In this document: positions 11,507-49,713 of the stretch, one piece after another
How positions within the stretch are numbered: the stretch's first letter is position 1
How the letters are laid out: each line of letters starts with the position of its first letter
Virus record (IMG/VR): IMGVR_UViG_3300031576_000002
Span: 62,001 to 126,000 of that record
Source: a virus
DNA: 64,000 bases
Direction: 5' to 3' (one strand)
Program-made: the position numbers and the translations under genes
Notes under the pieces: model-generated
Databases searched by the model: none
What the model was told of the DNA's origin: nothing
Seen by the model: only the letters and a program-made list of their open reading frames with translations

Positions 11507-12985
11507 TCACGAGACCGTCGAGATTGCGATGGACTCGAACCGAGCGTATTCCTTTTCGCTGAATTCGATCATCTCCCCTGCGGGATCGTCTGTGATCCTG
11601 CGGATGTTTCCAAACTCATCTGTTGCAGTGATCTCTCGAATAATGACTTGATCGACGGACTGCACACGCACGCCTGAGACTCCAGTCTGGATGACGACGA
11701 TAACGTCCGATACCTGAATGGGGTCTCCCAGGCGGAACAGATCGAAGAAGAGGCTCAGCGCGAGCCGGATCTTCTCGCTCTCAACTTCGATGTCCACGCC
11801 GCCGAAGAAGGTGACAGCCGCGCGCATTTCCACGCCAAACCGGATCCCGCGCTTTACGAGTGGATTCGCAGTCAGGATCTGGTTCTCGGGCGTATCAATG
11901 TCGATCTGCGCTCTGGAGACCTCGCTCGCAAACGAGTAGGTCACCGTGAATACTTCCCCTTCACTCAGAGCGACGTGTCCCGCAGGTAGAATTCGTAAGC
12001 GCTCCAAGGCCCGCATAGAAAAGCGCAAGATCGAAGTCGAATCGCGCTCGACTTCGTAGTGCGTACCTTCCGACAGTGTTCCTGCGGCTTCTCCCCGCAC
12101 GATCAGTACCGCAAGCATAGGCTTGGCGACACGACTTCGTTCTACTTGTGCGCCCAAGCCGTACACATCGAGCGTTGGATCGTGGATGAAGGTCTGCGTA
12201 ATCTCTGCCAAGGAGTCGTCAATGACGAAGGCATCAATCCCGTTGGCGCGTTCGCTTTGAGTATCGTCCGTCCGAAGCACACGCGCGTCGAAGAAGTCGA
12301 AGTTATTGACAAGGTAGGATTCGAGGCCCCTGCGAATGTTTCTTTCTCGTCCTCGGGCTCGCCGCAGAACCCGCTCTCGCAGGACTTGGTCGGACTCCCG
12401 ATCCGTTCCGCCGGTAACTGCGTCCGGGTTGTAGACGCCCTCGATTCCAGCAACTGCGCCTTGTACGGATGAGATCCTCGCTTCGCCGATGTTTCCCTTC
12501 GTACCAATCTCAACGGCCTCGATCGGAACCGGATCCGTTTCGTAGCGCTGCGTATCGGAATGGAAGAAGGGTGTCGCCCCAATCCCACCTGGCATGGTAC
12601 GGGTTGCGACCGTCCGGTAGGTTACCTGCTGGGTCAGGTTGAAGGTCACGGTTGAGACCAATGTACCTGCCGGGATTTCGAGATCCGCTGTGGGAGCCGT
12701 GGAGGTGAAGAAGACCGCGGAGCCCCGCGATCTCCGCCCGGACTTTCTCGTCAGCGCGTAGTTCCCAGCCTCTTCGTCCAGGTCTTCGCCCGTGAGCGTA
12801 GAGATGACTTGCAGCTCTTGAACTATATCGAGCTGACTGAAGATCAGCTTGCCGGAGATCGACGCCGGAAAGAGAACTAGGTTCGACACGACGCTGTTGG
12901 GCGACGTATCAATATCGGGCCGTACGTTCCGGAGAAAGCGCCGGACTTCCGACAGGAGTTGGATCTCGTCCTTGATCTCGGCCAT
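11507..12985 (-). CDS. Baseplate J-like protein (wedge)
   Basis: 492 residues. The family signature is clear: an N-terminal helix-rich part, then a beta domain ending in a GGTDRESDQVLRERVLRR segment near residue 200, the conserved GG-D-E-x-D-x-LR-x-R block of P2 gpJ / Mu gp47 proteins. J proteins build the baseplate wedge and couple the hub to the fibres. Flanked by a small baseplate protein upstream (4 bases away) and the beta-helix protein downstream. Confidence 0.9.
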   Translation of the reverse strand: MAEIKDEIQLLSEVRRFLRNVRPDIDTSPNSVVSNLVLFPASISGKLIFSQLDIVQELQVISTLTGEDLDEEAGNYALTRKSGRRSRGSAVFFTSTAPTADLEIPAGTLVSTVTFNLTQQVTYRTVATRTMPGGIGATPFFHSDTQRYETDPVPIEAVEIGTKGNIGEARISSVQGAVAGIEGVYNPDAVTGGTDRESDQVLRERVLRRARGRERNIRRGLESYLVNNFDFFDARVLRTDDTQSERANGIDAFVIDDSLAEITQTFIHDPTLDVYGLGAQVERSRVAKPMLAVLIVRGEAAGTLSEGTHYEVERDSTSILRFSMRALERLRILPAGHVALSEGEVFTVTYSFASEVSRAQIDIDTPENQILTANPLVKRGIRFGVEMRAAVTFFGGVDIEVESEKIRLALSLFFDLFRLGDPIQVSDVIVVIQTGVSGVRVQSVDQVIIREITATDEFGNIRRITDDPAGEMIEFSEKEYARFESIAISTVS

Positions 12986-22737: not shown

Positions 22738-23703
22738 TTACAGGACAAGCGTAACTTCACGAGGGGCTACAGTATCAGCCGTTGTTGCAGCAAACTCCAC
22801 GGCTGGATCAAAGCGCTCCCACGCCTTTCTGATTTTCCAGTAGCGCCTGAAGTATTCTATCCATTTCGGCCTGTTGTGGTTTGTAGCCATGTGGCACGCA
22901 ACGCACGAAGAGATAAGATTTCGGCTGAGGCCCTTACCCGTCTTACCGTAGTTATGATGCTTGTCGTAGTCCACATGGTGTACACTCAGTTTGACCTTAC
23001 AGCCCTTCTGGTGAATTCCGCAGATCTGGCAAGTGTACCAGTCCCGCTTTCTAATCCTTCGTCGAAGCCGTTTGCTGAATTCAGGAGGGTGTGGAAGAAA
23101 CGATGTTCCGCCTTTCCAGTTATAGTGGTTTGGACCTGAGAATCGTTCGATCATCTCAGGACGATTGAAGGTCTTTTTCAGACTGGCTGTGATCTTAGCC
23201 TGATGCTCTGGCGTCTTCTTTCTACCTTTGTTCCAACTCCCCCAGCCAGGTGGAGGCTTCCAAGGATTCGCAGCTCGCGCCGCTCGAATCTTCTGGCGTG
23301 TCTCTTCCGAGAGGTGGCGCCCTTTGAAGTAAGAAGTAGCCCTGCCACGAGTGTGCGCTAGCTTCTGCACTTCAATTTGGCTACGCCTTTTTATTCCGTG
23401 AATCTTCAGCCATCTGGATACAGGAGTAACGCTGCATCCGATTTCTTCGGCAATCTCTGCAACCGACATCTCTGCGTACTTTGCTTTCATCCAGCTCTTA
23501 TCTTTGAGGGTGGCGTAGGGAAGGCGTAGCTTTACAGTCGAAGGCATTCCCATCGGACGTACTGGAATTTTGGCCTTCCGCAAGCTTCTTAGAACTAGGG
23601 GCTTACTTACGCCGAGGCGGTCTGCCACTGCCTGCGCTGGCAGGCACTCCACCACATATAGTTGCTTCAAGGCTAGCGGGTCGAGATTGATGCGAGCCGG
23701 CAT
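22738..23703 (-). CDS. HNH homing endonuclease with helix-turn-helix arm (1)
   Basis: 321 residues, beginning MPARINLDPLALKQLY. N-terminal half holds helix-turn-helix units (PAQAVADRLGVSKPLVLRSL; AEIAEEIGCSVTPVSRWL). C-terminal third is an HNH nuclease: CQICG, then LSVHHVDYDKHHN with the catalytic His pair, then CVACH, giving CxxC/CxxC zinc ligands. Paralogous to the next gene upstream (same start and same HNH core). Inserted between sheath and tube genes, the classic site for free-standing homing nucleases that target a neighbouring conserved gene. Confidence 0.9.
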   Translation of the reverse strand: MPARINLDPLALKQLYVVECLPAQAVADRLGVSKPLVLRSLRKAKIPVRPMGMPSTVKLRLPYATLKDKSWMKAKYAEMSVAEIAEEIGCSVTPVSRWLKIHGIKRRSQIEVQKLAHTRGRATSYFKGRHLSEETRQKIRAARAANPWKPPPGWGSWNKGRKKTPEHQAKITASLKKTFNRPEMIERFSGPNHYNWKGGTSFLPHPPEFSKRLRRRIRKRDWYTCQICGIHQKGCKVKLSVHHVDYDKHHNYGKTGKGLSRNLISSCVACHMATNHNRPKWIEYFRRYWKIRKAWERFDPAVEFAATTADTVAPREVTLVL

Positions 23704-23759: not shown

Positions 23760-24629
23760 CTATTCGAAGGAGGCGGCTGTTGCAGCAAATTCCACGGCAG
23801 GGTTGAAGTGTTCCCAGGCTGTCCTAATCTTCCAGTAACGCCTGAAGTATTTGACCCACTTTTTTCTATCCGTGTTGGTTCGGACGTGGCAAGGTATACA
23901 CAGTGTTGTAAGATTCTCGGGCACGTTATTATGCTTATCGTAATCTACACGGTGAACGCTCAGGCGTGCCTTACAGTCTTTCTGCTGCACACAACATATC
24001 TGGCATATCTGCCCATCCCGTGCCCGAATTTCTCGCCGTAACTCTGCGCTAAAAGTTCTCGGATATGGGTACTTTGCAATTCCGCCCTGCCAATTGTGAT
24101 TGAGCGGACCCGATATATCAGGACGAAATTTTCCCTTACCCTGTGCAACTCGACCTTGCTTAAAAGTTAAGCGGACAGCCTCGCTCCGGCTACGAAGGGG
24201 TATCCCAAATTTTTGAAATGACGCTACTACAACGCTCTGGGTACAGCCGAGCTTTGTAGCAATATCAGAAGTTGCTAAAGTCTTGTACTGCTCACGCAAC
24301 CACGCGGGATCTTGAAGCTCTGGGTACTGCGTTGGACCGTAGATTGTAGCTTTATGGAATTTGAGAACTCGCACGATAGTGGGACGGGTTACTCCAATCT
24401 TCTGTGCAACTTGTTCAGCAGAATGGCATTTCTCGTAAAGGTGTAGGATCCGATCGTGGTCCAGACTGTTCCAGATACTTGTAGGATGCCGCTCGATGCC
24501 CGAGCTAACCATAAACGTCCAGACTTTGTACTTCGAGACGCCCAAGTTTTTGGCGATCTGAAGGCACGTCATGCCCTGCTTTCGCAGGTGCTTGACGCGC
24601 TCTGGGTCGAGGTCTATACGCGCTGGCAT
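23760..24629 (-). CDS. HNH homing endonuclease with helix-turn-helix arm (2)
   Basis: 289 residues from the ATG at 24629 (MPARIDLDPERVKHL), chosen because the paralogous gene downstream starts the same way; a longer frame to 24677 would run through the upstream hairpin. Three helix-turn-helix units (LQIAKNLGVSKYKVW, AEQVAQKIGVTRPTIV, SDIATKLGCTQSVVV) precede an HNH domain with CQICC, LSVHRVDYDKHNN and CIPCH. The second histidine of the usual HH pair is Arg here (HRVD), while the paralog has HHVD. The last residues ASFE match the end of the tail sheath. Confidence 0.88.
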   Translation of the reverse strand: MPARIDLDPERVKHLRKQGMTCLQIAKNLGVSKYKVWTFMVSSGIERHPTSIWNSLDHDRILHLYEKCHSAEQVAQKIGVTRPTIVRVLKFHKATIYGPTQYPELQDPAWLREQYKTLATSDIATKLGCTQSVVVASFQKFGIPLRSRSEAVRLTFKQGRVAQGKGKFRPDISGPLNHNWQGGIAKYPYPRTFSAELRREIRARDGQICQICCVQQKDCKARLSVHRVDYDKHNNVPENLTTLCIPCHVRTNTDRKKWVKYFRRYWKIRTAWEHFNPAVEFAATAASFE

Positions 24630-24660
24630 GCTACAGTTCGAGGCGGGCTCAGACTGTAGC
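24630..24660 (-). promoter_or_regulatory. Hairpin abutting the HNH (2) start codon
   Basis: GCTACAGT (24630-24637) pairs perfectly with ACTGTAGC (24653-24660), and inner GAG pairs with CTC around GCGGG. The helix ends exactly at the ATG as for HNH (1). There is no U-run, so translation control is more likely than termination. Confidence 0.65.
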
Positions 24661-24686
24661 ACACTCCAACTAGCCACGCCAGCAGC

Positions 24687-26318
24687 TTACTCGAACGAAG
24701 CCACAAATGCGAAATTCACGTCCAGGAAACGAAGCGGGAATGCAGGCTTGACTCTCGCCCGCACAAAGATCCTGCGCGGCTCGATCGTGTCCTGCTGCGC
24801 CTGCACGTCCCGGAACTCCGCCAGGATTCGATCCTGGACAAGAGTCTGAAGAATGGACGTGACCGAGGTCTCGATCGCACCTTCGGTGTCTGCCGTGATC
24901 TTGGTATTTCGGTAGAGATCGAACAGGCGCAGGCGCACGAACTGCCGGAGATAGTCCGCCGTGTCCTGAACGCTCAGGTCTTCCGTGAACACATTGGTCG
25001 TGTCCACGGTAATCGGAATCGCCATGATCGTGCCGAGGTTGGCGATATCGGCACGGCGCCGCTTGAAGGGAATGACGCCGTTTCGCCGAAGCTCTCGGGC
25101 CTCGTCGAGGATCCAGCTATCGTAAAGCGTGACGCCCGAAATGGGGGCGAAGTTGTTCGGCGCTCCGATGAACGATCCCGCCAGGAGTCCGCCGGTTGCA
25201 GCCATCAAGAAGTTCACGTTCTGATTGCTACCCAGCGTAGTCGCTGAAGCCGTCGAGCCCGAGATCGTACCTACCTGGATCGCTACCGCAGATCGCACGG
25301 TATGGCCGTCCAGATCGCCCGGAGGACCCTTCACGCCGGGAAGTGCGATTCGGTTTCCGGCGGTCTGGTTCTCATCGAACGGATTCGCCTGCTCCTTGAA
25401 CGACTCGGCAATCGCCGTCATCAAGGTAAGATCCGTACCTCTGGGGTAGCTGCCCAGCAGGGTACGCTCCCGGCCCTCGTCAGGGGCAGAAGCGGACAGG
25501 GCGTGGATGAAGAACCGGCTATTGTTGTCCTCGCCGAAAGTCCAGTCAGCTCTGTCCGGGTCACTGCCGGGATCCATGGGCACCAGCCAGAGCTTGAACT
25601 CCTCCACCTTGTTGATCTTCTGCACGGCAATGTCGTAGCTGGGCTCCATCTCTAGTGTCCCGCCTATGGGAGGAACAGTAGTAGGGTTAAGCGGATCCCC
25701 CCAGTCCAGTGCGGTCACGCCCGGCAAAGAACCATTGCCGGTAACGGAAGGATGGAAGTCGAGCTGGAGAATGACCACACCAGGCGCGTTGTTCTTGAAC
25801 GCCAACCGGCCCGCCGCCACCAGCGGATTGACCTCGCGGTCGTCAGCGAGAACCGAGGAGAAGAACAGCTCGCTGCCCCGCTCTCGAATCATCAACTGCT
25901 CGTCGAGATACAGCAGCGGCTCGAACGCGCTTGCGGGAATCTCCACGGTGTAGTTGAGGAAATACTTGGTTCCTACCGGGGGCTCTGCACCTCCCGGTGC
26001 CCATTCGACCCGTGCGGGAACGGTCGAGCTGGGAGAAGGCGTGATGGTGTAGTCCGTGCCCTCGGAGAACTGCGTCGCTCCCGGCGCTCTGCCGACACCC
26101 CAGACAGTCACGACAGGGCTGGTACTCGGCTCCGCGCGCAGATCGTCGTAAGAAGTCGTGGAGCTACGGGTCAGGCCGAGATTGCGTTCCTTGATGACCT
26201 CGTAGTCGCCCCGGCCAATAATGGCGGGAAAACGCTCGAAACCCGCGGGCGCGATGATGCCCTGGTTCTCGATCGTCACTACGATGCCAGGAAGACGTTC
26301 GCCAGTAGAGAGCGGCAT
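24687..26318 (-). CDS. Tail sheath protein
   Basis: 543 residues. The N-terminal segment (VTIENQGIIAPAGFERFPAI) and the C-terminal third (ETSVTSILQTLVQDRILAEF ... RARVKPAFPLRFLDVNFAFV) match the conserved pattern of contractile sheaths, where the C-terminal domain forms the inner contacts with the tube and neighbouring sheath subunits. A clear GGAGG precedes the ATG. Next in order are two HNH genes and the tube, so the usual sheath-tube pair is interrupted. Confidence 0.92.
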   Translation of the reverse strand: MPLSTGERLPGIVVTIENQGIIAPAGFERFPAIIGRGDYEVIKERNLGLTRSSTTSYDDLRAEPSTSPVVTVWGVGRAPGATQFSEGTDYTITPSPSSTVPARVEWAPGGAEPPVGTKYFLNYTVEIPASAFEPLLYLDEQLMIRERGSELFFSSVLADDREVNPLVAAGRLAFKNNAPGVVILQLDFHPSVTGNGSLPGVTALDWGDPLNPTTVPPIGGTLEMEPSYDIAVQKINKVEEFKLWLVPMDPGSDPDRADWTFGEDNNSRFFIHALSASAPDEGRERTLLGSYPRGTDLTLMTAIAESFKEQANPFDENQTAGNRIALPGVKGPPGDLDGHTVRSAVAIQVGTISGSTASATTLGSNQNVNFLMAATGGLLAGSFIGAPNNFAPISGVTLYDSWILDEARELRRNGVIPFKRRRADIANLGTIMAIPITVDTTNVFTEDLSVQDTADYLRQFVRLRLFDLYRNTKITADTEGAIETSVTSILQTLVQDRILAEFRDVQAQQDTIEPRRIFVRARVKPAFPLRFLDVNFAFVASFE

Positions 26319-26394: not shown

Positions 26395-27126
26395 TCAAGG
26401 GTCGTAGAGAGTTGCAGAAAAGAACGCGGCTTCGATCTCATCCAGGCGGACGAGACGATCTTCCCACTCGCCTCTCACCGGAATCGTAAGCTCGGTCTGG
26501 TAGAGACGAAAGTCGGTTGCTACATCCTCTGTCGAGGACTGCGAGCCAAAGCTGGGAGCGTCTGTAATCACGAAGCCGTACTTCTTCATCAGGAGCGCTT
26601 TGAATACGGGATGCGCGGTAAAGTACCCCGCCATGTCCGCTAGATTGTCCGCTTCTTCTCTGGTTCTAGCGACCGCGGTAAAGCTCAGCACGAACTCCGC
26701 CGCACCTCCGAAAACAGCTTCATTGGGGTCAAGAGATTCGTCGATCTCCATGAAGCCGCCGAACGATCCACTGCCGAGCATGGAGCGGATCTCGTTGCCG
26801 TCTGGATTGGTCGGAATCCTGGGAGCTTGTACAGTGGTGAAGCTCAACTCTTTCATCGGCCCCGTAACGGCATTGATGAGCACGCAGGGATACTCCCGGT
26901 TCCTGAGATCAATCCCTGCCAGCCCTCTTGTCTGCCCCGTAGCTTGGTCGAGTCCGGCTGCTCTCGCTTCCCACTCTTCGTAGGTTCTGGCAGTCGGCTT
27001 TCGTGAGAACTTGATCGCTTCTCTGCCATCCGAGAGACGAATCACATCTCGATCAACCAGGTCGAAGAGGCGCCGAAAGTAATCGACGAATCCGTGCTTG
27101 ATTCCGCGTGTGAGCCGAAAGTACAT
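26395..27126 (-). CDS. Neck/tail-completion protein
   Basis: 243 residues, mixed alpha/beta, no named motif. It precedes the sheath by 76 bases, where contractile phages encode tail terminator or neck proteins (T4 gp14/gp15-like). The central part has a beta pattern (EFVLSFTAVARTREEADNLA) and the C-terminus LYQTELTIPVRGEWE. The call is from position. Confidence 0.55.
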   Translation of the reverse strand: MYFRLTRGIKHGFVDYFRRLFDLVDRDVIRLSDGREAIKFSRKPTARTYEEWEARAAGLDQATGQTRGLAGIDLRNREYPCVLINAVTGPMKELSFTTVQAPRIPTNPDGNEIRSMLGSGSFGGFMEIDESLDPNEAVFGGAAEFVLSFTAVARTREEADNLADMAGYFTAHPVFKALLMKKYGFVITDAPSFGSQSSTEDVATDFRLYQTELTIPVRGEWEDRLVRLDEIEAAFFSATLYDP

Positions 27127-27488
27127 CAGCCTTTCCTTTCAACCAGCAGTGCTTCTGTCCAGGCTCTCACACCTGGAAGAGGCTCGGCAATCCGCATGTA
27201 GATTCGGGGGGCTCTTCCTGTCTGCTTTGCCATATCTCGTGCGATGCGGATGACAGTGGGAATGTTCTCCGGAGTCTCTTTCGTGCCCTTTTCCTTGAGC
27301 GCGATTCTACCCTGGCCGCCTCTTGCCGTCGCTTCCAGCCGATTGATGAAGTCTACGTCGCCTGCTTCCGCCGCTTGCATCACGGCTTCGGTGTAGCCCT
27401 GCCGTACAAAGGCGTTCGTCTGCTCCGCCGGCAGTGCCTTCAAGTAATTCTGGAACTGCTGAATGGCTCTGGTATCTACATTAAACAT
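27126..27488 (-). CDS. Small head-tail joining protein, unknown family
   Basis: 120 residues, helical first half, then beta strands (RIYMRIAEPLPGVRAWTEAL). Abuts the next gene at base 27126. Length, composition and place fit HK97 gp10-like minor connector proteins, but I see no decisive signature. Confidence 0.5.
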   Translation of the reverse strand: MFNVDTRAIQQFQNYLKALPAEQTNAFVRQGYTEAVMQAAEAGDVDFINRLEATARGGQGRIALKEKGTKETPENIPTVIRIARDMAKQTGRAPRIYMRIAEPLPGVRAWTEALLVERKG

Positions 27489-27771
27489 GATTCGAGTACA
27501 CCTTTGCGCCGAGAAGATCGCTCAGCGCCGCGATTGGCTCTTCCGATTCTACGCGAAGCAGCAAAGCTTTGCGGTTCCGAAAGCACACTTTTTCTCCGGC
27601 CAGAAGCGCAGATGAAAAGGGATGCGGGACTCGCAACACGATCGGGCTAGTGGGAGTTTCGGTAGCAGGAGAGATTCGTACTTCGACCGTGCTGTCGGGA
27701 TCCCATCCTGCCGTTACTTCCGACACAACTCCTAAGAGTTCATCCGGGCAGGCAGAGTGCCAGGCGTACAT
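27481..27771 (-). CDS. Small beta-rich head-tail joining protein, unknown
   Basis: 96 residues, mostly beta (STVEVRISPATETPTSPIVL). Overlaps the following gene by 8 bases and the preceding PagL-like gene by one base (TGATG), so translation is probably coupled. Size fits a stopper protein of the head-tail joint (inference only). Confidence 0.5.
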   Translation of the reverse strand: MYAWHSACPDELLGVVSEVTAGWDPDSTVEVRISPATETPTSPIVLRVPHPFSSALLAGEKVCFRNRKALLLRVESEEPIAALSDLLGAKVYSNHV

Positions 27772-28262
27772 CAGAATGCCCAGCCTGCGGAAAATACAAC
27801 GGAGTTGATCCCGCCATTCGGTGCATCAAGGCCGGCATTCGATAGATGGTGGATTCGAGTTCCAAGCTCCAGTTCCTCGATTACACGCACGCTCGCGCCG
27901 GCTTGCAGCAGGAACATGACCTTGTCCGCCTGCCCACGCGCCCCATCGAAATCCGTATAGCCCGCGCCTGCATCTGCTCTTGCTGTAAAGCGGCTGTACT
28001 GGACACGACCTCCGCCGTACAGGAACGCGCCCCAGCCGTGGTACGGCGCATAGACACCCAAACCTTGAAGGCCGATCGCGCCCTTGAGGTACTCGAAAAG
28101 TACAGGAGTTCGACTCTCTACTTCGACCAGACCGAGGCGTGAATCAACCAGGTTCCCGTTTCGCGTACCGCCCAAGGGAACGCCGAATCCCCAGCCTGCT
28201 TCGATAGAAGGCTGCGCTTGCGCCGCAGTTGCAAGCAGCAGGAGGAAGGCCAGCGTTCGCAT
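27771..28262 (-). CDS. PagL-like outer-membrane lipid A deacylase
   Basis: 163 residues from the ATG at 28262, which overlaps the upstream stop (TGATG); a GTG one codon earlier is the alternative. Sec signal peptide MRTLAFLLLLATAAQA then Gln. The mature part alternates as an 8-stranded beta-barrel and ends in Phe, as outer-membrane proteins do. The segment HLSNAGLDAPNGGIN has the PagL catalytic pair His139 and Ser141; the position of the third PagL residue (Glu140 in Pseudomonas aeruginosa) is Asn153 here. PagL removes the 3-O-acyl chain of lipid A. In a phage it would alter the host outer membrane. Confidence 0.8.
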   Translation of the reverse strand: MRTLAFLLLLATAAQAQPSIEAGWGFGVPLGGTRNGNLVDSRLGLVEVESRTPVLFEYLKGAIGLQGLGVYAPYHGWGAFLYGGGRVQYSRFTARADAGAGYTDFDGARGQADKVMFLLQAGASVRVIEELELGTRIHHLSNAGLDAPNGGINSVVFSAGWAF

Positions 28263-29155
28263 CACGTTCGCACGACTGGAATCTTAGTTCTCGGATCGTT
28301 CTCTTCTAGCAGGACTGCCGTGAATTTCTGGCTTTTCAAGCGGGACTGGCCGTTGGCGAATCCAAGCCCCCAGTCCAGCTCGTTCATCACGACTTCGTAG
28401 TATGCGTTGTTCGCAGCGCGAACGAGCAGATCGTGTTCGAGGATCACGGGCGTGAAAGGCGGCACGGAGGTCCACCATTCGATTCTACTTGCGCGCGTCA
28501 TACCCGCAGGCTGCACGGAGAGATCACCGGGTTCGGCAGGAAGCGCCAGTGGAATGATGTGCGGCGCGGTAACGCCGCGGAAGAGGCGCTTGGGGTCCAG
28601 GAATTGCCGGTAGCCTCGCAGACTCGTCTCCTTAGAGGGGAAGTTGTCTACGACCGGCTGACGGCTGTGGAAGTCAGTAGCAGGAGAAATCCAACGGTAC
28701 AGGACGTGAACGGGGTCCGTGCCGTTGTGGGGCGGAGCATTGAGGATGAGGTAGACCACTCCTGGCAGGGGGTTATCACTCGCGTCTACACGCCTTGCTT
28801 GAAAGTCGAGAGAGAACTGAGCTGCATTCGGTGAGAAGGTATCCTTGTCCTGAATCTGAGTTAGCTCGATCGCACCGAAGCTGGTCGTGAGCGTCGCCTC
28901 GAACCCTTCCGAGTCGGGGAATTCTTCCGGCGGATCTCGCTCTTCGTGCCAGATGACGGTACGCGGCAATCTTACGTCAGGGTCGAGATCATAGTTTCCG
29001 AGCGTCTTCACCACTCGATCGGAGTCGTAGCGCCGCTGGAGAAGATAGAACGGCTCGCCTCCAAACTGGAGGTACTCGTCCTGGTGCGCGATGACAATGT
29101 CAAGCGCACCCGTGGCGTCAAGGACGTGCCAGGGTTCGACCCAGAAGCGACTCAT
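28262..29155 (-). CDS. Virion structural protein, unknown family
   Basis: 297 residues, beta-rich, starting MSRFWVEPWHVLDATGALDI. It overlaps the upstream membrane protein by 4 bases. No motif recognised; sits among neck and host-envelope genes. A virion role is inferred from its composition and place. Confidence 0.5.
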   Translation of the reverse strand: MSRFWVEPWHVLDATGALDIVIAHQDEYLQFGGEPFYLLQRRYDSDRVVKTLGNYDLDPDVRLPRTVIWHEERDPPEEFPDSEGFEATLTTSFGAIELTQIQDKDTFSPNAAQFSLDFQARRVDASDNPLPGVVYLILNAPPHNGTDPVHVLYRWISPATDFHSRQPVVDNFPSKETSLRGYRQFLDPKRLFRGVTAPHIIPLALPAEPGDLSVQPAGMTRASRIEWWTSVPPFTPVILEHDLLVRAANNAYYEVVMNELDWGLGFANGQSRLKSQKFTAVLLEENDPRTKIPVVRT

Positions 29156-29439
29156 GCTGTAGGTGAAGGTAAGAGTGGAGCTGCGGGCGGTGCAGCCGGC
29201 GGAACTTCGGCTGGGGGAGTAGGCGGCTTACGCGCAGCAAGCGGAGGGCGCATGGCAAAGTACGCGCCCACAACGGTCATGACCAAAGCGCTAAACTGAT
29301 CGTTCGGAAGATCAATCGCAACTCCCAGAAGAGGACCACAAGCCCTGAGAGTTACAAGTCCGAGGTAGGTCCAGACCACGGAAAGCGTGATGATGGCTCG
29401 AATGCTGCCCTCTGGAAGATTAAGGCTCCCGCGTTTCAT
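29152..29439 (-). CDS. Two-helix membrane protein, holin candidate
   Basis: 95 residues. Two hydrophobic helices (IRAIITLSVVWTYLGLVTL, ~13-31; FSALVMTVVGAYFAM, ~49-63) and a very proline/alanine-rich tail. Size and topology fit class II holins. The M15 peptidase that could be its endolysin partner lies 10 kb upstream, not next to it, so the assignment is tentative. Confidence 0.5.
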   Translation of the reverse strand: MKRGSLNLPEGSIRAIITLSVVWTYLGLVTLRACGPLLGVAIDLPNDQFSALVMTVVGAYFAMRPPLAARKPPTPPAEVPPAAPPAAPLLPSPTA

Positions 29440-33160: not shown

Positions 33161-33734
33161 GAAGCCTTCCCCACAAATCGTCAAAGGCATACTGCATTTT
33201 AAGCTCTCGGCCTTTTTGAAGAAAGGGCTGCAAACTTTCCCAGACACTCTCTTTGCTCGCATCTTCTGCCAAAGCCTTGAGCAGTTCCGTAGCGTCTCCG
33301 TAGTCACCCGCTCCACGCCAAGCCCCCAGCTTCAGAGCTAGCAACTGTTCTGTAGAGGGCTGAGAAGCTGTGATCCCTTCTGATTGTACCAGAACAGGAC
33401 CCTCGGATAGAACATCGACATAGCCCTTGGCCGCATCATTGAGCCAGTCACGGGGCCAGTTGTTCTCTGCGGCTACCGCCTCTGCCCATTTCCGCACGAG
33501 CTGTGCATTGGGCGATAGAATGACGACGTCAACATCTTTGGTGGACTCTCGGGTGCGGTAGCCAAGAACCATAGCAGCGCCACCAAGAACGACCAAATGG
33601 ATCTGTTGACCATCGGCATGGGCAAGTTCGCCGAGTCGGGTAAGGCCGGATTGAATATCGGAAAAGTTGAAGGAGGAGTCTGCGGGAGACGCGGAAAGGC
33701 AGAGGCGACGGAGGATAGCTGTGAGGGGGCTCAT
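33147..33734 (-). CDS. Nucleotidyltransferase-fold protein (AbiEii/MNT-like) with SPLT leader
   Basis: 195 residues from the ATG at 33734, which overlaps the stop of the homing endonuclease (ATGA). Leader MSPLTAILRRLCLSA is followed by a nucleotidyltransferase signature: VVLGGAAMVLGYRTRESTKD and VDVVIL, the GG plus D-x-D arrangement of AbiEii/MNT-type enzymes. These transfer a nucleotide to RNA or protein, often as toxins. Here it could act on host targets after injection or counter defence (inference). Confidence 0.75.
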   Translation of the reverse strand: MSPLTAILRRLCLSASPADSSFNFSDIQSGLTRLGELAHADGQQIHLVVLGGAAMVLGYRTRESTKDVDVVILSPNAQLVRKWAEAVAAENNWPRDWLNDAAKGYVDVLSEGPVLVQSEGITASQPSTEQLLALKLGAWRGAGDYGDATELLKALAEDASKESVWESLQPFLQKGRELKMQYAFDDLWGRLHEPT

Positions 33735-34936
33735 GCTGCGGCCTGGACGAGACGGGGTATGCCGAGGAAGGTGCGGAGGCGCTTGCGGACTAGCTTGCGG
33801 CCTTCCTTGGACTTCAGTTCGCACTCCCACACAATGAGCAATTTCCATCCTGCATCAGCTAGAGCTTCTGCCTTTGCTTTATCACGTAGTACGGCGGCGA
33901 TCTGCGGAACGTACTTAGGAGTGTACGGCTGATGCCATTCATTACCAACAGCGTGTGCATGCCAAAAGCATCCATTGCACTCTATCGCTACTTTAGTTTG
34001 TAAGAGCGCGATGTCGAGGGCTCGCTTCTTACCACGCTGGTAGCGATGGTCAAAAGTGTAATCAGTTTGAAACTCTACCCCCAGTTTGCGCAAAATTCTC
34101 TGGACACGGCGTTCAGGTAGCGAATCCTTGACTGGCTGGCAACGGCGTAACGGAATACCGAACTTCTTCACTCGGTCGGCTATGGTACTCGTGGTGCAAT
34201 GAAAGCATCGAGCAATTTCCGGAATTGTCAGCTTTTGAGCTGTATAGAGCCCTTCTAGCGACTCTTTTGTAATATCGGGCCTTCGCTCACGATCCGGCCA
34301 GTTACCAGCTTCGATTGTTCTTTTAGCCCAAATCTTCGTCGCCGTTACTGTATCGCGCCTTTTTACCCCACTTCTTTCCAGGCGGTCAATAATAGTAGTT
34401 GTATCAACTTTAAGTTCTGCTGCAAGACTCGAAGCGCTCCTGCCGTCCTTGTATTGAACGACTATGTACGCATCATCAAGCTCTTTAGCCGCAAAACTCT
34501 TCCTAACGCTTACCCCTTGTGCAGACATGTAACTGCGTACGGTAAGACCGTCAAGCCCGGTACGGTTAGCTATCTCTCTGATACTATGCCCTGCCTTGTA
34601 GAGAGACACTATTTCAGAAGACTTTTCTGCGTACTTCCTCCATTCGTACTTGTAGACTCCCGCAAGAGTCAAACGATTTATTACGATTTTCTCTGTTGTT
34701 TCTACTTCGCGTGCAATCGCTCGCGGACCTTTTCCCGTCTGGTAGAGCTGTAAGATACGTTCAGCATCGACCTCAACTCTTCCAGGGCACTTTTCGATGA
34801 TAACCCCCGCTTCGCGCAGTCTGGACTTGACGAGCTTTCTGGAAACTCCTAAAGAAGCCGCCAAAGCGCTTAGGCTTTCCCGCGCCTTGTAGCGTGCAAC
34901 TAGCACGGCCGAGTTGAGATGGATTTGGCGTTTCAT
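33731..34936 (-). CDS. Vsr-like homing endonuclease with five helix-turn-helix units
   Basis: 401 residues from the ATG at 34936 (MKRQIHLNSAVLVARYK); an in-frame start 40 codons earlier lies inside the intein-bearing gene and is rejected. Five tandem helix-turn-helix units of ~60 residues (for example LSALAASLGVSRKLVKSRL, IPEIARCFHCTTSTIADRV) precede a Vsr/EDxHD-type nuclease: TDYTFDHRYQ, RALDIALLQTKVAIECNGCF and WHAH. Vsr-like homing nucleases are known beside inteins and split genes. Its stop overlaps the next gene. Located 35 bases after the gene with two mini-inteins. Confidence 0.88.
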   Translation of the reverse strand: MKRQIHLNSAVLVARYKARESLSALAASLGVSRKLVKSRLREAGVIIEKCPGRVEVDAERILQLYQTGKGPRAIAREVETTEKIVINRLTLAGVYKYEWRKYAEKSSEIVSLYKAGHSIREIANRTGLDGLTVRSYMSAQGVSVRKSFAAKELDDAYIVVQYKDGRSASSLAAELKVDTTTIIDRLERSGVKRRDTVTATKIWAKRTIEAGNWPDRERRPDITKESLEGLYTAQKLTIPEIARCFHCTTSTIADRVKKFGIPLRRCQPVKDSLPERRVQRILRKLGVEFQTDYTFDHRYQRGKKRALDIALLQTKVAIECNGCFWHAHAVGNEWHQPYTPKYVPQIAAVLRDKAKAEALADAGWKLLIVWECELKSKEGRKLVRKRLRTFLGIPRLVQAAA

Positions 34937-34970
34937 GCAGCGGGCAATTTTATAGCAACTGCGTAGAACA

Positions 34971-36812
34971 TCAAGGCGTAAATCCGCTTCCTGCAAGTAC
35001 CCCGCTAGGCCCGCCGACCGACAAGCCGTACCTACTGAAAAACCCCGACGGAACACTACTATTACAGCACATGATCCCGTCCGCTACAAAGTTCTCGAAC
35101 CTGCTCCCAGGCACAGAAATATCGTACATACGTGGGCTCTTCATAGGCTCGATAGATACGATCTTAGCGCGACAGACTTCGGTATCCAAGAGATGCCCTT
35201 GCGCCCTTGGAGGAGCTACGACAATCTCATCTCCCACTTGAAGGTCTCGACCTTTTACCCGTAGAAGGCTGTTCAAGCCGAACCGAAATACCGAGTGGTC
35301 TCCCGTGAGAGAAATCGATGTCCTGCTTGACAGACGCACCCGATAGCAGTCCTTTCCCGCGCAATCATGAGAGAGCCACGCCTGGACTTTTTTCCAGGCA
35401 GGACGCCCCGTCTTTGTATCGACCGCAAGCACTTCGGGAGATTTGACTTCAGCGGCAAAATCGCCAATTGGAACTGTCTGGATCTTTCCGCCGTCCCTCA
35501 CAATCAACTCGTGTTCCGCGCCAACAGAAAAGAAGCGGCCAATCGAGTTGTGAGCCATGACGCCCGAAGCCACGAAGTTCTCTACTCCAGGCACGGACAG
35601 GTCGTACATCTTAGCTACGTGAACAGGTTCTACTGCCTTGACACGGTCAATCCGTGAAGTGCTGGTTTCCAGACGGTGCCGAAGATCGCAAGTGACAATC
35701 TCACTACCTTCTTTCAGGGCTCTTCCTTGTACCGGCTCCAGCCGGTTTCCCTGCACCTCAAACAAGGAGTGATCCCCTGTAATCGTAATGGACTTTCCAC
35801 CGGCTGTCTTGATCTTGTAGCAGTCTTTGGCAGAAGTGTCGTGCTCCCACCACTGGGTAACCGGATGCCATCCTACCTCACCGCTAGCGGGATGGATCGC
35901 CAAGACTTCAGAGCCTTCTCGTGGGTTCGCACAAGCCTCTCCAATCGTAACCGGATAGGTTCGTTTACCCTCCCGTATAAGTAATTCTTCTTCAGTAGAT
36001 ATACTGAAGGAATACTGCATCTGGACTAACACCGATCCTTGACTTCTAAACTGCTGCTTGAACCGGATCAGCCAGTCTTTGAAGTCCGCGAACAGGGGAA
36101 GTCCGCTCACCTGAGCAATCTTGCTCAGGTGGTCAATGGTGAGCGCGTTGCCGCCGAGGCTGTAGACGTAGTCCGTGTCCACGGCGTAGATGCCCTGGCT
36201 CTCCAGGGCTACCAGGGTAGCGGCCTGGATGAGAACCCAGAGATGCTGGTCTGGGAAGTTGCCGACCCCGAACCCGGTATAGGGCGGCACCATGTTGATG
36301 ACGCCCGCTCCGAGGTCGAGGTAGACGGACATCATCGCGTCGGAGTAGCCGTAGGTGACGCCTCCCCGCGACGTAATGTTGGTGGACGTGAGGCTCTTGC
36401 GGCTCTTGTCCACCATCAGCCGCAGGATGGGGATGTACTTGAAGTATTTGATCGGGGCTACGCGGATCAGGTGCTGCTTCCGGATCTCCCTGGCGTTTCC
36501 AGTCCGGAAGCGGTAGAAGGCCAGGTACGTGGGGCTCTGAAGCAATGCTGAGTCAAAACCGTACTTGTACGTGCCCAATCCAAGCCGCTGGACAGCACCA
36601 CTGCCTGCCTCTGGAAACAGCAGCGTCTCGATCGCGGTCCCGCCGTCGTCCACTAGCTCGATCTTTCCCGCTTCGGGGTCGGTCGTGATGAGCTGCTCGG
36701 GAGTCGCGTTCCTGTCGAGTGGCTCGGTCGCCGCAATGAGAATGTCCTCGGCAGTGCCTTGCCTGAGCAGGACAAGCTCTTGATCGCTTCTGAGAGGCTG
36801 TGGCTGGCTCAT
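34971..36812 (-). CDS. Neck-like virion protein interrupted by two inteins
   Basis: 613 residues as read, about 304 after removal of both inteins. N-extein 1-269, a 6-residue middle extein (SIGRFF, 423-428) and C-extein 585-613. The N-extein contains YSDAMMSVYLDLGAGVINMV, PPYTGFGVGNFPDQ and DYVYSLGGNALTIDHLSKI, a pattern I associate with head-tail neck/completion proteins of large myoviruses (tentative). Splicing of both inteins is needed to make the product. A Vsr-like homing nuclease follows. Confidence 0.8.
   Translation of the reverse strand: MSQPQPLRSDQELVLLRQGTAEDILIAATEPLDRNATPEQLITTDPEAGKIELVDDGGTAIETLLFPEAGSGAVQRLGLGTYKYGFDSALLQSPTYLAFYRFRTGNAREIRKQHLIRVAPIKYFKYIPILRLMVDKSRKSLTSTNITSRGGVTYGYSDAMMSVYLDLGAGVINMVPPYTGFGVGNFPDQHLWVLIQAATLVALESQGIYAVDTDYVYSLGGNALTIDHLSKIAQVSGLPLFADFKDWLIRFKQQFRSQGSVLVQMQYSFSISTEEELLIREGKRTYPVTIGEACANPREGSEVLAIHPASGEVGWHPVTQWWEHDTSAKDCYKIKTAGGKSITITGDHSLFEVQGNRLEPVQGRALKEGSEIVTCDLRHRLETSTSRIDRVKAVEPVHVAKMYDLSVPGVENFVASGVMAHNSIGRFFSVGAEHELIVRDGGKIQTVPIGDFAAEVKSPEVLAVDTKTGRPAWKKVQAWLSHDCAGKDCYRVRLSSRTSISLTGDHSVFRFGLNSLLRVKGRDLQVGDEIVVAPPRAQGHLLDTEVCRAKIVSIEPMKSPRMYDISVPGSRFENFVADGIMCCNSSVPSGFFSRYGLSVGGPSGVLAGSGFTP
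35061..35528 (-). mobile_element. Mini-intein 2 (Hint domain, residues 429-584)
   Basis: About 156 residues from Ser429 to Asn584. Block A SVGAEHELIVRDGG, block B SISLTGDHSVF with T503 and H506, block F MYDISVPGSRFENFVADGIM, ending CCN before Ser585. The penultimate residue is Cys rather than the usual His. Clearly paralogous to intein 1, six residues away. Also lacks an endonuclease domain. Confidence 0.83.
35547..36005 (-). mobile_element. Mini-intein 1 (Hint domain, residues 270-422)
   Basis: About 153 residues from Ser270 to Asn422. Block A reads SISTEEELLIREG, block B has SITITGDHSLF with T345 and H348, block F has MYDLSVPGVENFVASGVMAH and it ends HN followed by Ser423. All splicing residues are present. 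No DOD or HNH homing endonuclease is inserted, so it is a mini-intein dependent on another nuclease for mobility. Confidence 0.85.
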
Positions 36813-42311: not shown

Positions 42312-42680
42312 TTACGGAGCAGTAGAAGCGTCCGTGATTCTCAGCCGCAGCAAGTCGAGCAGCTTCAGCCCGTCCTCGTGCGGAAGCGCTTCGTAGACCT
42401 CGATCGCTAGAACTGGCCCCGCCTCGAACAAGGCGTTGACAACATCTTCGAGGTTTCCGTTAATCCAGGTCTCGGCCAACTCTTGTGCCTCGTTGAGACC
42501 CTCCTCACCACCTAGCCCTTTCGTAGAATCTTCCATGGACTCTTCCATGGACTCTTCCATGGACTCTTCCGTGGACTCTTCCATGGACTCTTCCATGGAC
42601 TCTTCCGTGGACTCTTCCATGGACTCTTCCACGTCGTCTTCCGCGCCGATAGCGCGGATGATTCTACTGAGGCGCTGCAT
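42312..42680 (-). CDS. Acidic protein with MEES/TEES repeat
   Basis: 122 residues. N-terminus MQRLSRIIRAIGAEDD resembles the amphipathic leader of nearby genes. Residues ~18-52 are a string of MEES/TEES tetrapeptides encoded by a 12-base DNA repeat. The C-terminal half is helical (DVVNALFEAGPVLAIEVYEA). The repeat will be very acidic and disordered. Function unknown. Confidence 0.65.
   Translation of the reverse strand: MQRLSRIIRAIGAEDDVEESMEESTEESMEESMEESTEESMEESMEESMEDSTKGLGGEEGLNEAQELAETWINGNLEDVVNALFEAGPVLAIEVYEALPHEDGLKLLDLLRLRITDASTAP
42529..42624. repeat. 12-base minisatellite, 8 units
   Basis: Eight head-to-tail copies of TCTTCCATGGAC (two with G in place of A at position 7), coding MEES or TEES on the minus strand; a degenerate unit follows. 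Copy number likely varies between isolates by slippage without breaking the frame. Confidence 0.92.
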
Positions 42681-42695: not shown

Positions 42696-43202
42696 CTACG
42701 GCAGCGCGTTGGTAATCGTGGTCAGAAGGTCCAGCGTGCTGTCGCGGAACTCGACGTAGGGCGCTGGACGGGCGGCAGCCACGGGCTCGTTGCGAGTACG
42801 GGGCTGACTCACCTTCTTCTGCTCGATCGCGGTACGAACTGTGTCCACGTCCGCAATCACAGCTCCATTACCCTGCGCAGCAGCGATGTCCGTGAGAAGA
42901 CCGAGGATTTCGTCGCGAAAAGAGCGCCGATTGATCGGAGCCTCGAACTCAACGCCGCGTACGAACACGTCCGAAACCTTGTTGACGCGATAGCCAGCGA
43001 TACGCGCCAGGAGCGCGGTCACAGTTGCAGAAGGCGCCAGAAGGTCGAGAACCGCCTCGCCTACGTCCAGGGTGGTATCCCGGAAGTTACGAAAGGCGTA
43101 CACTCCGACCTGCTCAGAGCCGGTCACGAATGCGCCCGAAACCAAGCGGTTCTCGATGTTGTCCAGCTCTGCCAGGATCTCTGCCTTTGTGCTTAGGGCC
43201 AT
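42696..43202 (-). CDS. FVRG-motif protein, paralog 1
   Basis: 168 residues, MALSTKAEILAELDNIENRL then SGAFVTGSEQ (22-31) and VFVRGVEFEAP later. A repeated FRDxxLxLL segment (FRDTTLDV, FRDEILGLL, FRDSTLDLL) is visible. Start and motif are shared with the gene at 44786-45331, so they are paralogs. Family not recognised. Probable virion component by location after the fibre genes. Confidence 0.65.
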   Translation of the reverse strand: MALSTKAEILAELDNIENRLVSGAFVTGSEQVGVYAFRNFRDTTLDVGEAVLDLLAPSATVTALLARIAGYRVNKVSDVFVRGVEFEAPINRRSFRDEILGLLTDIAAAQGNGAVIADVDTVRTAIEQKKVSQPRTRNEPVAAARPAPYVEFRDSTLDLLTTITNALP

Positions 43203-43265: not shown

Positions 43266-44423
43266 CTAGTCGCAAACACAGGCAAGTTCTAGGTCAACTG
43301 CGGCGCTAAAAGTAGAAAACAGACTCGCCACATTCACGCCAAGAGCGTCGGGAGAGTTGGTGCAGGTTGGTCCCGAATGAGTCGTCACGCCTGCCGGGTA
43401 GATCGTCAGTCCAGTTCCCCCGCTAGTGTTCCACTCAAGCTTAGCAGTGTCTGCCGCGTCTATGTTACAGACCCGGCAAGACCGAATGTTTCCGGCACAG
43501 GACGCTGGCAAAGTAACGGACTGGTCGGATCCATTGGGAGAAGCTGTGGTCGTGTTGACTTCTCCGCCGTTCTGAGAGACGCCGTTCACACGAAGACCGT
43601 AAACTCCATCTCCAGGGAGTTGGTACAAATCGCCCACCGCGTCGCGCAAGCCAACTGCAAGCGCGCCCGTAGGCGCGTCGGCGCCGTGGATTGCAGCAAG
43701 CTGCTCCACCACTGCATTGGCAGCGTCCTTCGCCGCGATTACTGGAGCACCTGTAGTGCTCGTCAACAGGCGTCTTGCATTTCCATCTTGAGACGTGCCT
43801 CCCACGTTGAGAAGTCCTGTGGGAACGGGGGAGTCGTGAGTACCGACAAAATTCGAGATTGCTGTTCCATCAATCTTATCCAAGTCTACTACAAAGGTAC
43901 CAGACCCGTAGTCAACTGTGAGCGATGATCCACCGTCCGATACATGCAGATTACCGCTCGAAGAATTCAAAATGCTGATGTACCCGGCCACGTTATCAAA
44001 CGCTAGCGGCATGTTGAGCAAAGCACTAGGGGTGGGCAGCAGAGGATCAAACGGCGCCGTAACGCTGCTGAGAATTCCCAGAGCCGTTGGCGTTACGCCC
44101 TCCAGTCCGTAAGTCAAAGACGGCATCGGATTCGCCGTCGATACAGCGGCTCCAGCCACGACCATAAAAGTGGGTAGTGGATTTGCAATTCCTACGGGAG
44201 TTCCAGCAATCTGCGTGATGTTTACGGGCTGCTCTCCTGCGCCAGGAGTGGTCGTAATCGATCCTGTCACGGGGACAGGAACCAGAGCCGAGACGGGGGA
44301 GAACGTGCCGCTACCGTCTTGAACGTACAGCACGCTCGGATTTGGAGCGGCTGTATAAACCGTTTGGGCAGCAGCAGAGCCTACCCACAAAAGAAGGAGA
44401 AATGGTATGTTCCGAATTTTCAT
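43266..44423 (-). CDS. Exported beta-rich protein with Sec signal
   Basis: 385 residues. Clear Sec signal MKIRNIPFLLLLWVGSAAAQ with a signal peptidase site after SAAA. The mature part is composed of short Thr/Val/Pro/Gly beta repeats like phage fibre proteins, with a Cys-rich C-terminus (CAGNIRSCRVCNIDAADTAK; final CVCD). An exported protein among virion genes is unusual; it may decorate the host envelope. Overlaps the lipoprotein-like gene by 4 bases. Confidence 0.7.
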   Translation of the reverse strand: MKIRNIPFLLLLWVGSAAAQTVYTAAPNPSVLYVQDGSGTFSPVSALVPVPVTGSITTTPGAGEQPVNITQIAGTPVGIANPLPTFMVVAGAAVSTANPMPSLTYGLEGVTPTALGILSSVTAPFDPLLPTPSALLNMPLAFDNVAGYISILNSSSGNLHVSDGGSSLTVDYGSGTFVVDLDKIDGTAISNFVGTHDSPVPTGLLNVGGTSQDGNARRLLTSTTGAPVIAAKDAANAVVEQLAAIHGADAPTGALAVGLRDAVGDLYQLPGDGVYGLRVNGVSQNGGEVNTTTASPNGSDQSVTLPASCAGNIRSCRVCNIDAADTAKLEWNTSGGTGLTIYPAGVTTHSGPTCTNSPDALGVNVASLFSTFSAAVDLELACVCD

Positions 44424-44758
44424 GGCGGCGTCTCCTTCTTGTCAGTATGACCTACCCCGCTTTTTTCCTTTTCGTCGGTGTTTTTGTCGGCCCGTTCTTT
44501 AGCAGGGACAGGAGACTTGCACTCCAACCCTCTAAGGTTTTTGTAGACTCCGTCCACGGGCGCGCAACATGGAATGCACCCTGGCGTGGGAAGATTTCCG
44601 CAGCAGGGAAGGCATTGGCCGCCTTGTAGCGTATCAAGGTCAATCCAGCGGCCACGACTTGCGTCTACCCACCGACTTGTATCAACCCAGTGGGGTGGGG
44701 GCATAGGCGCCGTACAAGCGCTGCTCAGCAGAAAAACAAACAGAAATAGTGATTTCAT
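44420..44758 (-). CDS. Cysteine-rich lipoprotein-like exported protein
   Basis: 112 residues. MKSLFLFVFLLSSAC has a signal peptide and a near-lipobox Cys15 (SSAC rather than LSAC), so lipidation is likely but not certain. Two CPCC-like clusters (CLPCCGNLPTPGCIPCC) follow a repeat of WVD-SR units, then a Lys/Glu-rich tail. Probably made together with the exported protein downstream. Function unknown. Confidence 0.6.
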   Translation of the reverse strand: MKSLFLFVFLLSSACTAPMPPPHWVDTSRWVDASRGRWIDLDTLQGGQCLPCCGNLPTPGCIPCCAPVDGVYKNLRGLECKSPVPAKERADKNTDEKEKSGVGHTDKKETPP

Positions 44759-44785: not shown

Positions 44786-45331
44786 TCAGGGATAAGCGGC
44801 CACAGCATCCCGAAAAATAGGAAACATTAAGACCGCGATCTCGTCTAGCGTCGCGCAACGATGGATAGGCACACCTCTCACGTATGAGCTTCCTATGAGC
44901 TTATTCAGGACCAATTCTTCCGCTTTCAGCGCAGCACTGAGAGCAGATGGATATCCATTTGCTAGATCAGACAACGTGCCTGCTGCGATGGTGATAGAGA
45001 TGATGCCTGCGTCGTCAGGCACCAACCCACGAAGTAGGGGGCGCCCGATTGGCCTTGGTTGCGGCTTTCCCCGCACTATGATGCCGATGTCAAGACTCGC
45101 GCGAGTCTCTTCCACAAAGGCGATGACCGCCGCTCGAACGAATGCAGTGAGGGGGTCACTTGTCGGAGTAATGAGTGCAGTGCCCTCCAAAATGTCAAGC
45201 CCTGTAGTTATGAGGGTGGCATCACTGAGAGCACTGGATTGTTCTTGTCCCCGAACAAACACCCCTGAGTGATTCAGCGCAGTGGCGCCGTCAATCACTC
45301 GCAAAATTTCTGCTTTGGTCGAAAGAGTCAT
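44786..45331 (-). CDS. FVRG-motif protein, paralog 2
   Basis: 181 residues. MTLSTKAEILRVIDGATALN, then SGVFVRGQEQ (22-31), later GIIVRGKPQPRP and SSYVRGVPIHR, giving three motif copies. Paralog of the gene at 42696-43202. Predicted helical between motifs. Virion or capsid-decorating role is inferred from the shared motif with fibre-like genes. Confidence 0.65.
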   Translation of the reverse strand: MTLSTKAEILRVIDGATALNHSGVFVRGQEQSSALSDATLITTGLDILEGTALITPTSDPLTAFVRAAVIAFVEETRASLDIGIIVRGKPQPRPIGRPLLRGLVPDDAGIISITIAAGTLSDLANGYPSALSAALKAEELVLNKLIGSSYVRGVPIHRCATLDEIAVLMFPIFRDAVAAYP

Positions 45332-47836: not shown

Positions 47837-49045
47837 TCAGCTATCCATCTCGACCAACGCGAAGTCGTCGATTGTGCCGGCCGCAACACTGCGGCGGAAC
47901 GCCAAGTACGTGGAATCGGTCGCGCCCTTCTTGAAGAAAGCCCATTGGTTCACAGCCGTCAGTTGGTCCAGCTCTCCCGTGAAGACGGGATCTGCCCCTG
48001 CGTAGCTGAAGGCCCCCTGGAACAGCACAGCGTTCGACCCCGCCTTGAGCCGAAGCTGATTTGAAGGATCGACCTCCAGGGTTGTGTTGTCGGTCTTGAC
48101 CGCAAGAAATCCTGCATCGGCCGCTGCCACGCCTGTACCGGCAGAATTCCGATCCTTGACAACGCCACCGTACTGCTGCGCAAGAATGGCGGTCGCGACG
48201 TCAGCAGCCAGGGGAGTACCAGAGCCTCCCCCGAGTCCATCGCCGGCTGCTCCTGCGGCAATCCGGACCTGATTGGACCCGTCAATCTCTAGTGTTAAAA
48301 AATCGGTCTTGGCCGCAGCGTACCCCAGGTCTGCTCCCGCGATCCCAGATCCATCGGCAGTGCGACGAACATCAAGACCGCCGTACTGTTGTGGCGCCGC
48401 CGCTACCGCAGGGGCTACCCGTAGGACGTTGACGGCTTTGTCGAGACCGTCACCTGCTTCAAGCTGCGCCGCAGTAAAAGGACTCCACGGCAAAGGATCG
48501 GTATCAACAATATCGGTGCCGAAGGGTGCAGTACATACCCACGAGGTATTGATATTGACTGTACCTTCCAACACCGAGATGATAAACACGCCGCTGGCCG
48601 AATTCCCCGTCACCAAATCGGAGGAACGGACAGGAGCGCCCGCGAGCTGGACGTCGTATACCCCATTCTGGGTCGCGGACACTTGGTTCTTGATTAGGAT
48701 GCGGTCCCCCGTCACGAGCAATACGCCGTCAATCGTGTCGCCATTCTCAAAATCGGTCGCGAGGGTACCGGCCACCACGGTGGCGGCCCGGGCAGCTTCG
48801 TGGGGTTGCAGCCCTGAAGCCGCGGCATCAACGTACGCCTTGGACGCCGCATCATTCGATTCGAAGGGAACCAGCGGAACATTGATCTGATCGCCGTCTC
48901 GTTGAACCAGAGCATCCGACGTCACCATAGGGCTAAACACAATCTCGGCGAGCAATCCTCCACTATCCGTCCCGATAACCGTCTCGGCGGTCCCGGGGTC
49001 GTGGTCTCCGGTGGAGGCCAGCTCGTGGTTTTGCCGGTGGCTCAT
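47837..49045 (-). CDS. Tail/head fibre protein (1)
   Basis: 402 residues from the ATG at 49045, which overlaps the upstream stop (ATGA); a longer frame to 49138 is rejected. N-terminus SHRQNHELASTGDHDPGTAE resembles the next fibre. It carries two copies of the QQYGG module (QQYGGLDVRRTADG; QQYGGVVKDRNSAGTG), each followed by a KTD-x-LT-LE-D-SNQ segment. C-terminal beta domain differs from its neighbour. A fibre-like adhesin. Confidence 0.78.
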   Translation of the reverse strand: MSHRQNHELASTGDHDPGTAETVIGTDSGGLLAEIVFSPMVTSDALVQRDGDQINVPLVPFESNDAASKAYVDAAASGLQPHEAARAATVVAGTLATDFENGDTIDGVLLVTGDRILIKNQVSATQNGVYDVQLAGAPVRSSDLVTGNSASGVFIISVLEGTVNINTSWVCTAPFGTDIVDTDPLPWSPFTAAQLEAGDGLDKAVNVLRVAPAVAAAPQQYGGLDVRRTADGSGIAGADLGYAAAKTDFLTLEIDGSNQVRIAAGAAGDGLGGGSGTPLAADVATAILAQQYGGVVKDRNSAGTGVAAADAGFLAVKTDNTTLEVDPSNQLRLKAGSNAVLFQGAFSYAGADPVFTGELDQLTAVNQWAFFKKGATDSTYLAFRRSVAAGTIDDFALVEMDS

Positions 49046-49713
49046 GGGGGCGTCGTCAGTTCCACGGCATACAGCGTACCGCTCACGTTCAAGACCTGGA
49101 ACGAGGTCAAGTTGACGGTGTCGAACCAAAAGCCCCATGTACTCGTGGGGATCTGGACTGTCGCGGGGGCCGCGGGCTGAGAGAAAATCCCGCGGTACGC
49201 ATGGGCCACGCTGGCGGCAACGTGTGCATCGAGCGTTGCGCCATCGACCGAAACATCGCGCCCGTCGAAAGTTCCGGGAGTCGTGAAGTTTCCGAGATCG
49301 TCAAGAATCGCGAGACTGTTCTGGATGATTTTTCCAGTAATTCCGTCAAACCGAGTAACGGCGTTGTCGGTCGAAACCGCAGGGCCGTCAACATCGCCCA
49401 GTGCCCCCGCATTGATATTTGAAAATGCTTCTTCGGCATCACTCGGATTCCCGATATTGGGGTAGCTGCCTTCTACGATTACGTTCGAGGCTGTAATCTG
49501 CCCAGAAGAGATAAGAGTTAGGGCTTCAATCACATCCCGGATTTCAACGCCCCGTGCTCGCGGCTCCTTAGCAATTCCCTCTTCCCGTAAAAGCTTGTCA
49601 AGAAGATAAGGATTAGGAGCACCCGGTTGCTCACGACCTCGAACAAATACGCCCGTGCCGTAACCACCGACAATTCGCCGAAAGAAATCTGATACGACAG
49701 AAATAGCTGCCAT
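49042..49713 (-). CDS. Fibre protein with N-terminal FVRG motif
   Basis: 223 residues. GTGVFVRGREQPG (19-31) at the N-terminus is shared with several neighbours. The middle GDVDGPAVSTDNAVTRFDGI, TGKIIQNSLAILDDLGNFTT is typical of phage tail fibres. The C-terminus is a beta domain. The motif sits where fibres attach to the virion, so it may be an anchoring peptide. Overlaps the next fibre. Confidence 0.75.
   Translation of the reverse strand: MAAISVVSDFFRRIVGGYGTGVFVRGREQPGAPNPYLLDKLLREEGIAKEPRARGVEIRDVIEALTLISSGQITASNVIVEGSYPNIGNPSDAEEAFSNINAGALGDVDGPAVSTDNAVTRFDGITGKIIQNSLAILDDLGNFTTPGTFDGRDVSVDGATLDAHVAASVAHAYRGIFSQPAAPATVQIPTSTWGFWFDTVNLTSFQVLNVSGTLYAVELTTPP

Follow-up and report, generated by a model that had tools for sequence, protein, structure and literature searches.

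A gene among the tail genes of a large tailed phage encodes a protein of the PagL family, and this protein is probably an active, phage-carried lipid A 3-O-deacylase, as judged from its sequence and its structure model. The gene lies in a window of 64,000 nucleotides, the whole stretch of DNA that was analyzed, which covers bases 62001-126000 in a virus record 205,227 bases long. Profile, fold, and genomic context support its membership of the PagL family, its origin in the phage, and its location within the tail genes. We favor the active deacylase because the protein has a signal-peptide-like start and a modeled barrel closest to that of PagL, retains the catalytic His and Ser, carries a third catalytic residue that is normal for the family, and is encoded in a tail operon by a gene whose end codons overlap its neighbors. 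We also infer that the protein is expressed late, inserts into the membrane, is active, and benefits the phage. The PagL enzymes of Salmonella, Pseudomonas, and Bordetella act on lipid A.

Family assignment and predicted fold

The gene and the protein that it encodes have the following features:

27771..28262, minus strand: PagL-family coding sequence, 163 amino acids plus stop (open reading frame; PF09411, 51.3 bits)
28215..28262, minus strand: predicted Sec signal peptide MRTLAFLLLLATAAQA (residues 1-16, read by eye), with cleavage expected ahead of Q17
27804..27848, minus strand: catalytic segment from H139 through S141 to N153 (2erv alignment, 76-row alignment, pattern unique in the window)
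27774..27809, minus strand: last beta strand with the C-terminal Phe (strand 152-162 of the model, sequence)

The open reading frame runs from 28262 to 27771 on the minus strand and begins with ATG, with a GTG one codon 5' of this start. A preliminary description of the DNA had proposed a protein of 163 residues that carries a Sec signal, a beta-barrel pattern, and a C-terminal Phe, and all of these were found. The N-terminus reads MRTLAFLLLLATAAQA followed by QPSIEAGWGFG after the expected cut, and the C-terminus reads VVFSAGWAF. Judged by eye, the signal peptide is of the standard Sec type; its hydrophobicity peaks at residue 4, and the structure model has a helix at residues 2-13 in this region. 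Alternating hydrophobicity is present in most, not all, of the predicted strands. As a general rule, a C-terminal Phe on the final strand is an outer-membrane targeting signal. The model agrees with the signal peptide and the C-terminal Phe recognized in the sequence, and the protein is predicted to reside in the outer membrane.

PagL (PF09411) was the single Pfam match of the protein (51.3 bits vs. a cut-off of 23, E = 1.7e-13), and this score places the resemblance suspected in the preliminary description far beyond chance. The match spans residues 86-161 only (profile positions 55-135), and the N-terminal half of the protein is divergent. Matches elsewhere were weak: phrog_15758 in PHROGs (E = 7.7e-4, 20.4 bits, confined to residues 99-155) and, in a sequence search of solved structures, the PagL of P. 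aeruginosa (2erv; E = 0.019), in a match that lines up the two catalytic segments. An NCBIfam search returned no match, and Ail_Lom was absent from the Pfam matches at E values up to 1. By sequence, the protein is a divergent, otherwise ordinary, member of the PagL family.

Folding from the single sequence was uninformative (pLDDT 42). AlphaFold2 with a 76-row alignment gave a barrel of eight strands with a mean pLDDT of 74, in a model that leans towards the PagL fold since the alignment is composed of PagL relatives. Confidence was weak in the N-terminal half (pLDDT 39 for residues 51-60). A comparison of the predicted structure with PagL had been proposed at the outset, and it returned PagL as the best match by both methods used. 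Foldseek ranked both chains of 2erv at the top (E = 1.1e-5), followed by OmpA (7e-4), and VIA-align likewise placed 2erv first (Z 16.6; 136 residues superposed with an rmsd of 2.2 Å and 23% identity; runner-up Z 14.4). The OmpX, OmpA, OmpW, and Ail barrels also matched the model, with scores below that of PagL in both comparisons.

The protein resembles 2erv in its predicted form, a Sec-exported, eight-stranded outer-membrane barrel with its C-terminal strand, and in an HxSNAG...PNxGx[EDN] segment that contains the catalytic His and Ser. It differs from 2erv in being phage-borne within a tail operon, in having Asn in place of Glu140, and in its diverged N-terminal strands, with identity of about 23% in the structural alignment. 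The Lom/OmpX/Ail proteins of lambdoid phages are likewise phage-encoded, eight-stranded outer-membrane barrels, but in contrast to the window protein they are without the catalytic segment. We ranked an identity as Lom/OmpX below PagL given the presence of this segment and the lack of a Pfam match to Ail_Lom.

Catalytic segment and its third residue

Residues 139-153 of the protein read HLSNAGLDAPNGGIN, and the DNA pattern for this segment had a single occurrence in the window, whereas 100 shuffles gave none. In the alignment with 2erv, H139, S141, and N142 fall on the HxSNAG segment, and H139 and S141 take the places of His126 and Ser128 in the PagL of P. aeruginosa. N153 stands opposite Glu140, the third catalytic residue of that enzyme. 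The His and Ser of the catalytic pair are retained, and the preliminary description was right to place an Asn (Asn153) at the third position.

The doubt about activity that it had drawn from this Asn is largely lifted by the relatives. Among 76 diverse PagL relatives, all of which themselves match Pfam PagL (alignment A2), the third position was Asn in 35, Asp in 35, and Glu in six; among the 120 bacterial pattern matches listed, it was Glu in 49, Asn in 49, and Asp in 22. These counts apply to the four residues that the search pattern allowed at this position (N, D, E, and K). In the 76 relatives, Asn equals Asp in frequency and exceeds Glu, so Asn153 would be a normal state of the family and no sign of a dead enzyme. 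Across these two sets, Glu does not define the family and Asn is ordinary at this position. Residues inside the search pattern are conserved by construction in the 76-row alignment; outside the pattern, G101 was found in all 76 rows and F117 in 70.

Genomic setting and relatives in other phages

The gene is surrounded by tail genes, in line with the preliminary description, which is borne out by the tail sheath and Baseplate_J genes. The setting comprises:

28260..28264, minus strand: TGATG overlap of the upstream gene's stop and the PagL gene's start
27769..27773, minus strand: TGATG overlap of the PagL gene's stop and the downstream gene's start
28262..29155, minus strand: upstream neighbor, 297 amino acids, no family match (Pfam, PHROGs)
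29152..29439, minus strand: 95-amino-acid product with a pair of hydrophobic stretches and a tail rich in Pro and Ala, without significant family matches
27481..27771, minus strand: downstream neighbor, 96 amino acids, no family match (Pfam, PHROGs)
26395..27126, minus strand: 243-amino-acid protein with a weak, non-significant tail-terminator match (phrog_1232, E = 0.19)
24687..26318, minus strand: tail sheath (phrog_279, E = 5.9e-9; Phage_sheath_1C, 26.4 bits, just below the cut-off)
11507..12985, minus strand: baseplate wedge / Baseplate_J protein, also part of this tail module

The TGATG overlaps on both sides and the location in a tail operon indicate that the PagL gene is a phage gene. 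It shares its strand with its neighbors, and its third-position GC (0.61) is like theirs. A long protein with a transglycosylase domain, encoded farther along the same strand, may be the tape measure, and our guess is that the 95-amino-acid protein two genes upstream is possibly a holin-like membrane protein. LpxR, Rz, phage lysozyme, and Amidase_2 families were not found in the phage record, which is possibly incomplete.

Several other features were observed in the record. Two family-2 glycosyltransferase matches lie elsewhere in it (G000:C1:17615-18070, L242; 134407-134529, L243). In the window, the adjacent minus-strand genes 43266-44423 and 44420-44758 carry export signals and are without family matches; their products have 385 amino acids and a Sec-like signal, and 112 amino acids and a lipoprotein-like signal, MKSLFLFVFLLSSAC, respectively. 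Three minus-strand genes inserted beside the tail genes (22738-23703, 23760-24677, and 33731-35056) are probably of homing-endonuclease type, with HNH-like sequence and repeated helix-turn-helix units recognized by eye. The protein encoded at 42312-42680 (minus strand) contains a run of EESMEEST-like repeats. A short GVFVRGxEQ-like motif occurs near the N-terminus of four proteins (42696-43202, 44786-45331, 49042-49713, and 49724-50230, all on the minus strand) and may be a tag that recurs in virion proteins.

Protein searches of phages, plasmids, and IMG/VR found no close relatives of the window protein, and neither did a search with a two-sequence alignment as query; we attribute this to tblastn confirmation being strict for so divergent a protein. 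A DNA pattern was used instead (H-x-S-N-A-G-x3-P-N-x-G-x-[N/D/E/K]), and it matched at least 120 stretches of viral contigs and at least 120 of bacterial genomes. In cultured phages, neither the window protein nor further PagL copies or DNA used as queries found a PagL. For the phage itself, IMG/VR scans with the tail sheath and with the upstream gene found no relatives, and the sheath had distant matches only, in cultured phages. In the searches made, this large tailed phage is an orphan by sequence.

We built a tree from bacterial copies and 29 viral PagL representatives, which were drawn from the matches listed and share less than 65% mutual identity. One mostly viral cluster (support 92/84), with two well-supported subgroups, held 24 of the 29. 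Examples of this cluster in IMG/VR are:

L017:3345-3917, PagL gene
L028:617-1105, PagL gene
L039:1931-2407, PagL gene
L040:3516-4004, PagL gene
L119:9608-10111, PagL gene

The copies in L017, L028, and L040 adjoin or stand near the large terminase, so they are real phage genes, and some members of the cluster have an N-terminal membrane anchor that replaces the plain signal peptide. Apart from this cluster, the tree contained a viral trio (L052, L060, and L086), a viral copy that grouped loosely with those of Alcaligenaceae (L043), and a Pseudomonas prophage-type PagL that fell among the copies of Pseudomonas. Given these separate places, phages seem to have acquired PagL several times. The window protein belonged to none of the viral groups; it stood on a branch of length 2.1 beside copies from Omnitrophota, Bacteroidota, Nitrospirota, and Acidobacteriota, without firm support, and its highest identity to any row of the tree was 29%. 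Like the window protein, members of the mostly viral cluster are carried on phage contigs and have the PagL segment with His and Ser, but they are separate on the tree and their third residue is mostly Asp.

The family phrog_15758, listed as of unknown function, was matched by the Pseudomonas-like copy L002:1983-2492 (E = 2.7e-89). It represents PagL in phage sequences and is weakly matched by the window protein, yet its copies are Pseudomonas-like and the window protein lies outside that group. On these matches, phrog_15758 is the PagL family of presumed Pseudomonas prophages and could be renamed.

Function of the protein during infection

Three other explanations were weighed against an active lipid A deacylase. 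It is unlikely that the protein is a PagL-fold outer-membrane protein that has lost its lipid A deacylase activity and acts through its surface loops in the manner of the phage-encoded Lom/OmpX proteins, for example in superinfection exclusion or adhesion. The divergent N-terminal half, the long branch, and the lower-scoring matches of the model to the OmpX, OmpA, OmpW, and Ail barrels would suit such a protein; however, loops would have no need of His139, Ser141, Asn142, Pro148, Asn149, and Gly151, all of which are kept together with a family-normal third residue, and PagL is the only Pfam match. We consider it quite improbable that the protein is a deacylase or esterase with a target different from the 3-O site of lipid A, for example phospholipids or some other acylated lipid in the envelope of an unusual host. 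In favor of this, the divergent part consists of the N-terminal strands, and the nearest bacterial relatives are not known to include an assayed enzyme; against it, the tested members with this fold and motif act on lipid A. The PagL of P. syringae does so too (PMC8876380).

That the gene is a passenger (moron) recently taken up from bacteria and without any part in the phage cycle, or the product of a chimeric contig, is very hard to credit. No second copy of the phage type was found in the IMG/VR scans to show retention, but the start and stop codons overlap both phage neighbors, the third-position GC is neighbor-like, the protein has diverged from every bacterial copy in the tree, and other phages repeatedly carry PagL.

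If the protein is an active deacylase, as we favor, it would be made late in infection and would sit in the infected cell's outer membrane, where it would cleave the 3-O acyl chain off host lipid A. The likeliest benefit would be a remodeling of the cell surface late in infection, which may lessen the adsorption of rival or sister virions (superinfection exclusion, receptor change) or leave the outer membrane less tightly packed at lysis. Loss of the 3-O acyl chain through bacterial PagL increases membrane fluidity, PagL action in Salmonella increases the formation of outer-membrane vesicles, and the PagL of P. syringae acts on lipid A (PMC8876380). The present data are consistent with either benefit and do not choose between them. 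The lack of Rz, lysozyme, and Amidase_2 matches would fit a need for help with the outer membrane, but we place little weight on these missing families because lysis genes frequently escape recognition and the record is possibly incomplete.

The rewriting of O-antigen by phages, through glycosyl- and acetyltransferases, is well known. In the literature searched, we found no description of a phage PagL or of phages altering the lipid A anchor during infection. The interest of these findings lies in phages carrying PagL at all, and in how many do; the window protein adds a new, divergent member to a family already known, and its gene is not unique among viruses. The PagL assignment supplies a name for a PHROG family annotated as unknown. 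We tentatively suggest that lipid A deacylation by a dedicated PagL may be a widespread and repeatedly acquired late function of phages of diverse Gram-negative hosts, which would exclude other phages or loosen the outer membrane for release. A compact enzyme encoded by a single gene and present in many phages would make a change of lipid A during infection directly testable.
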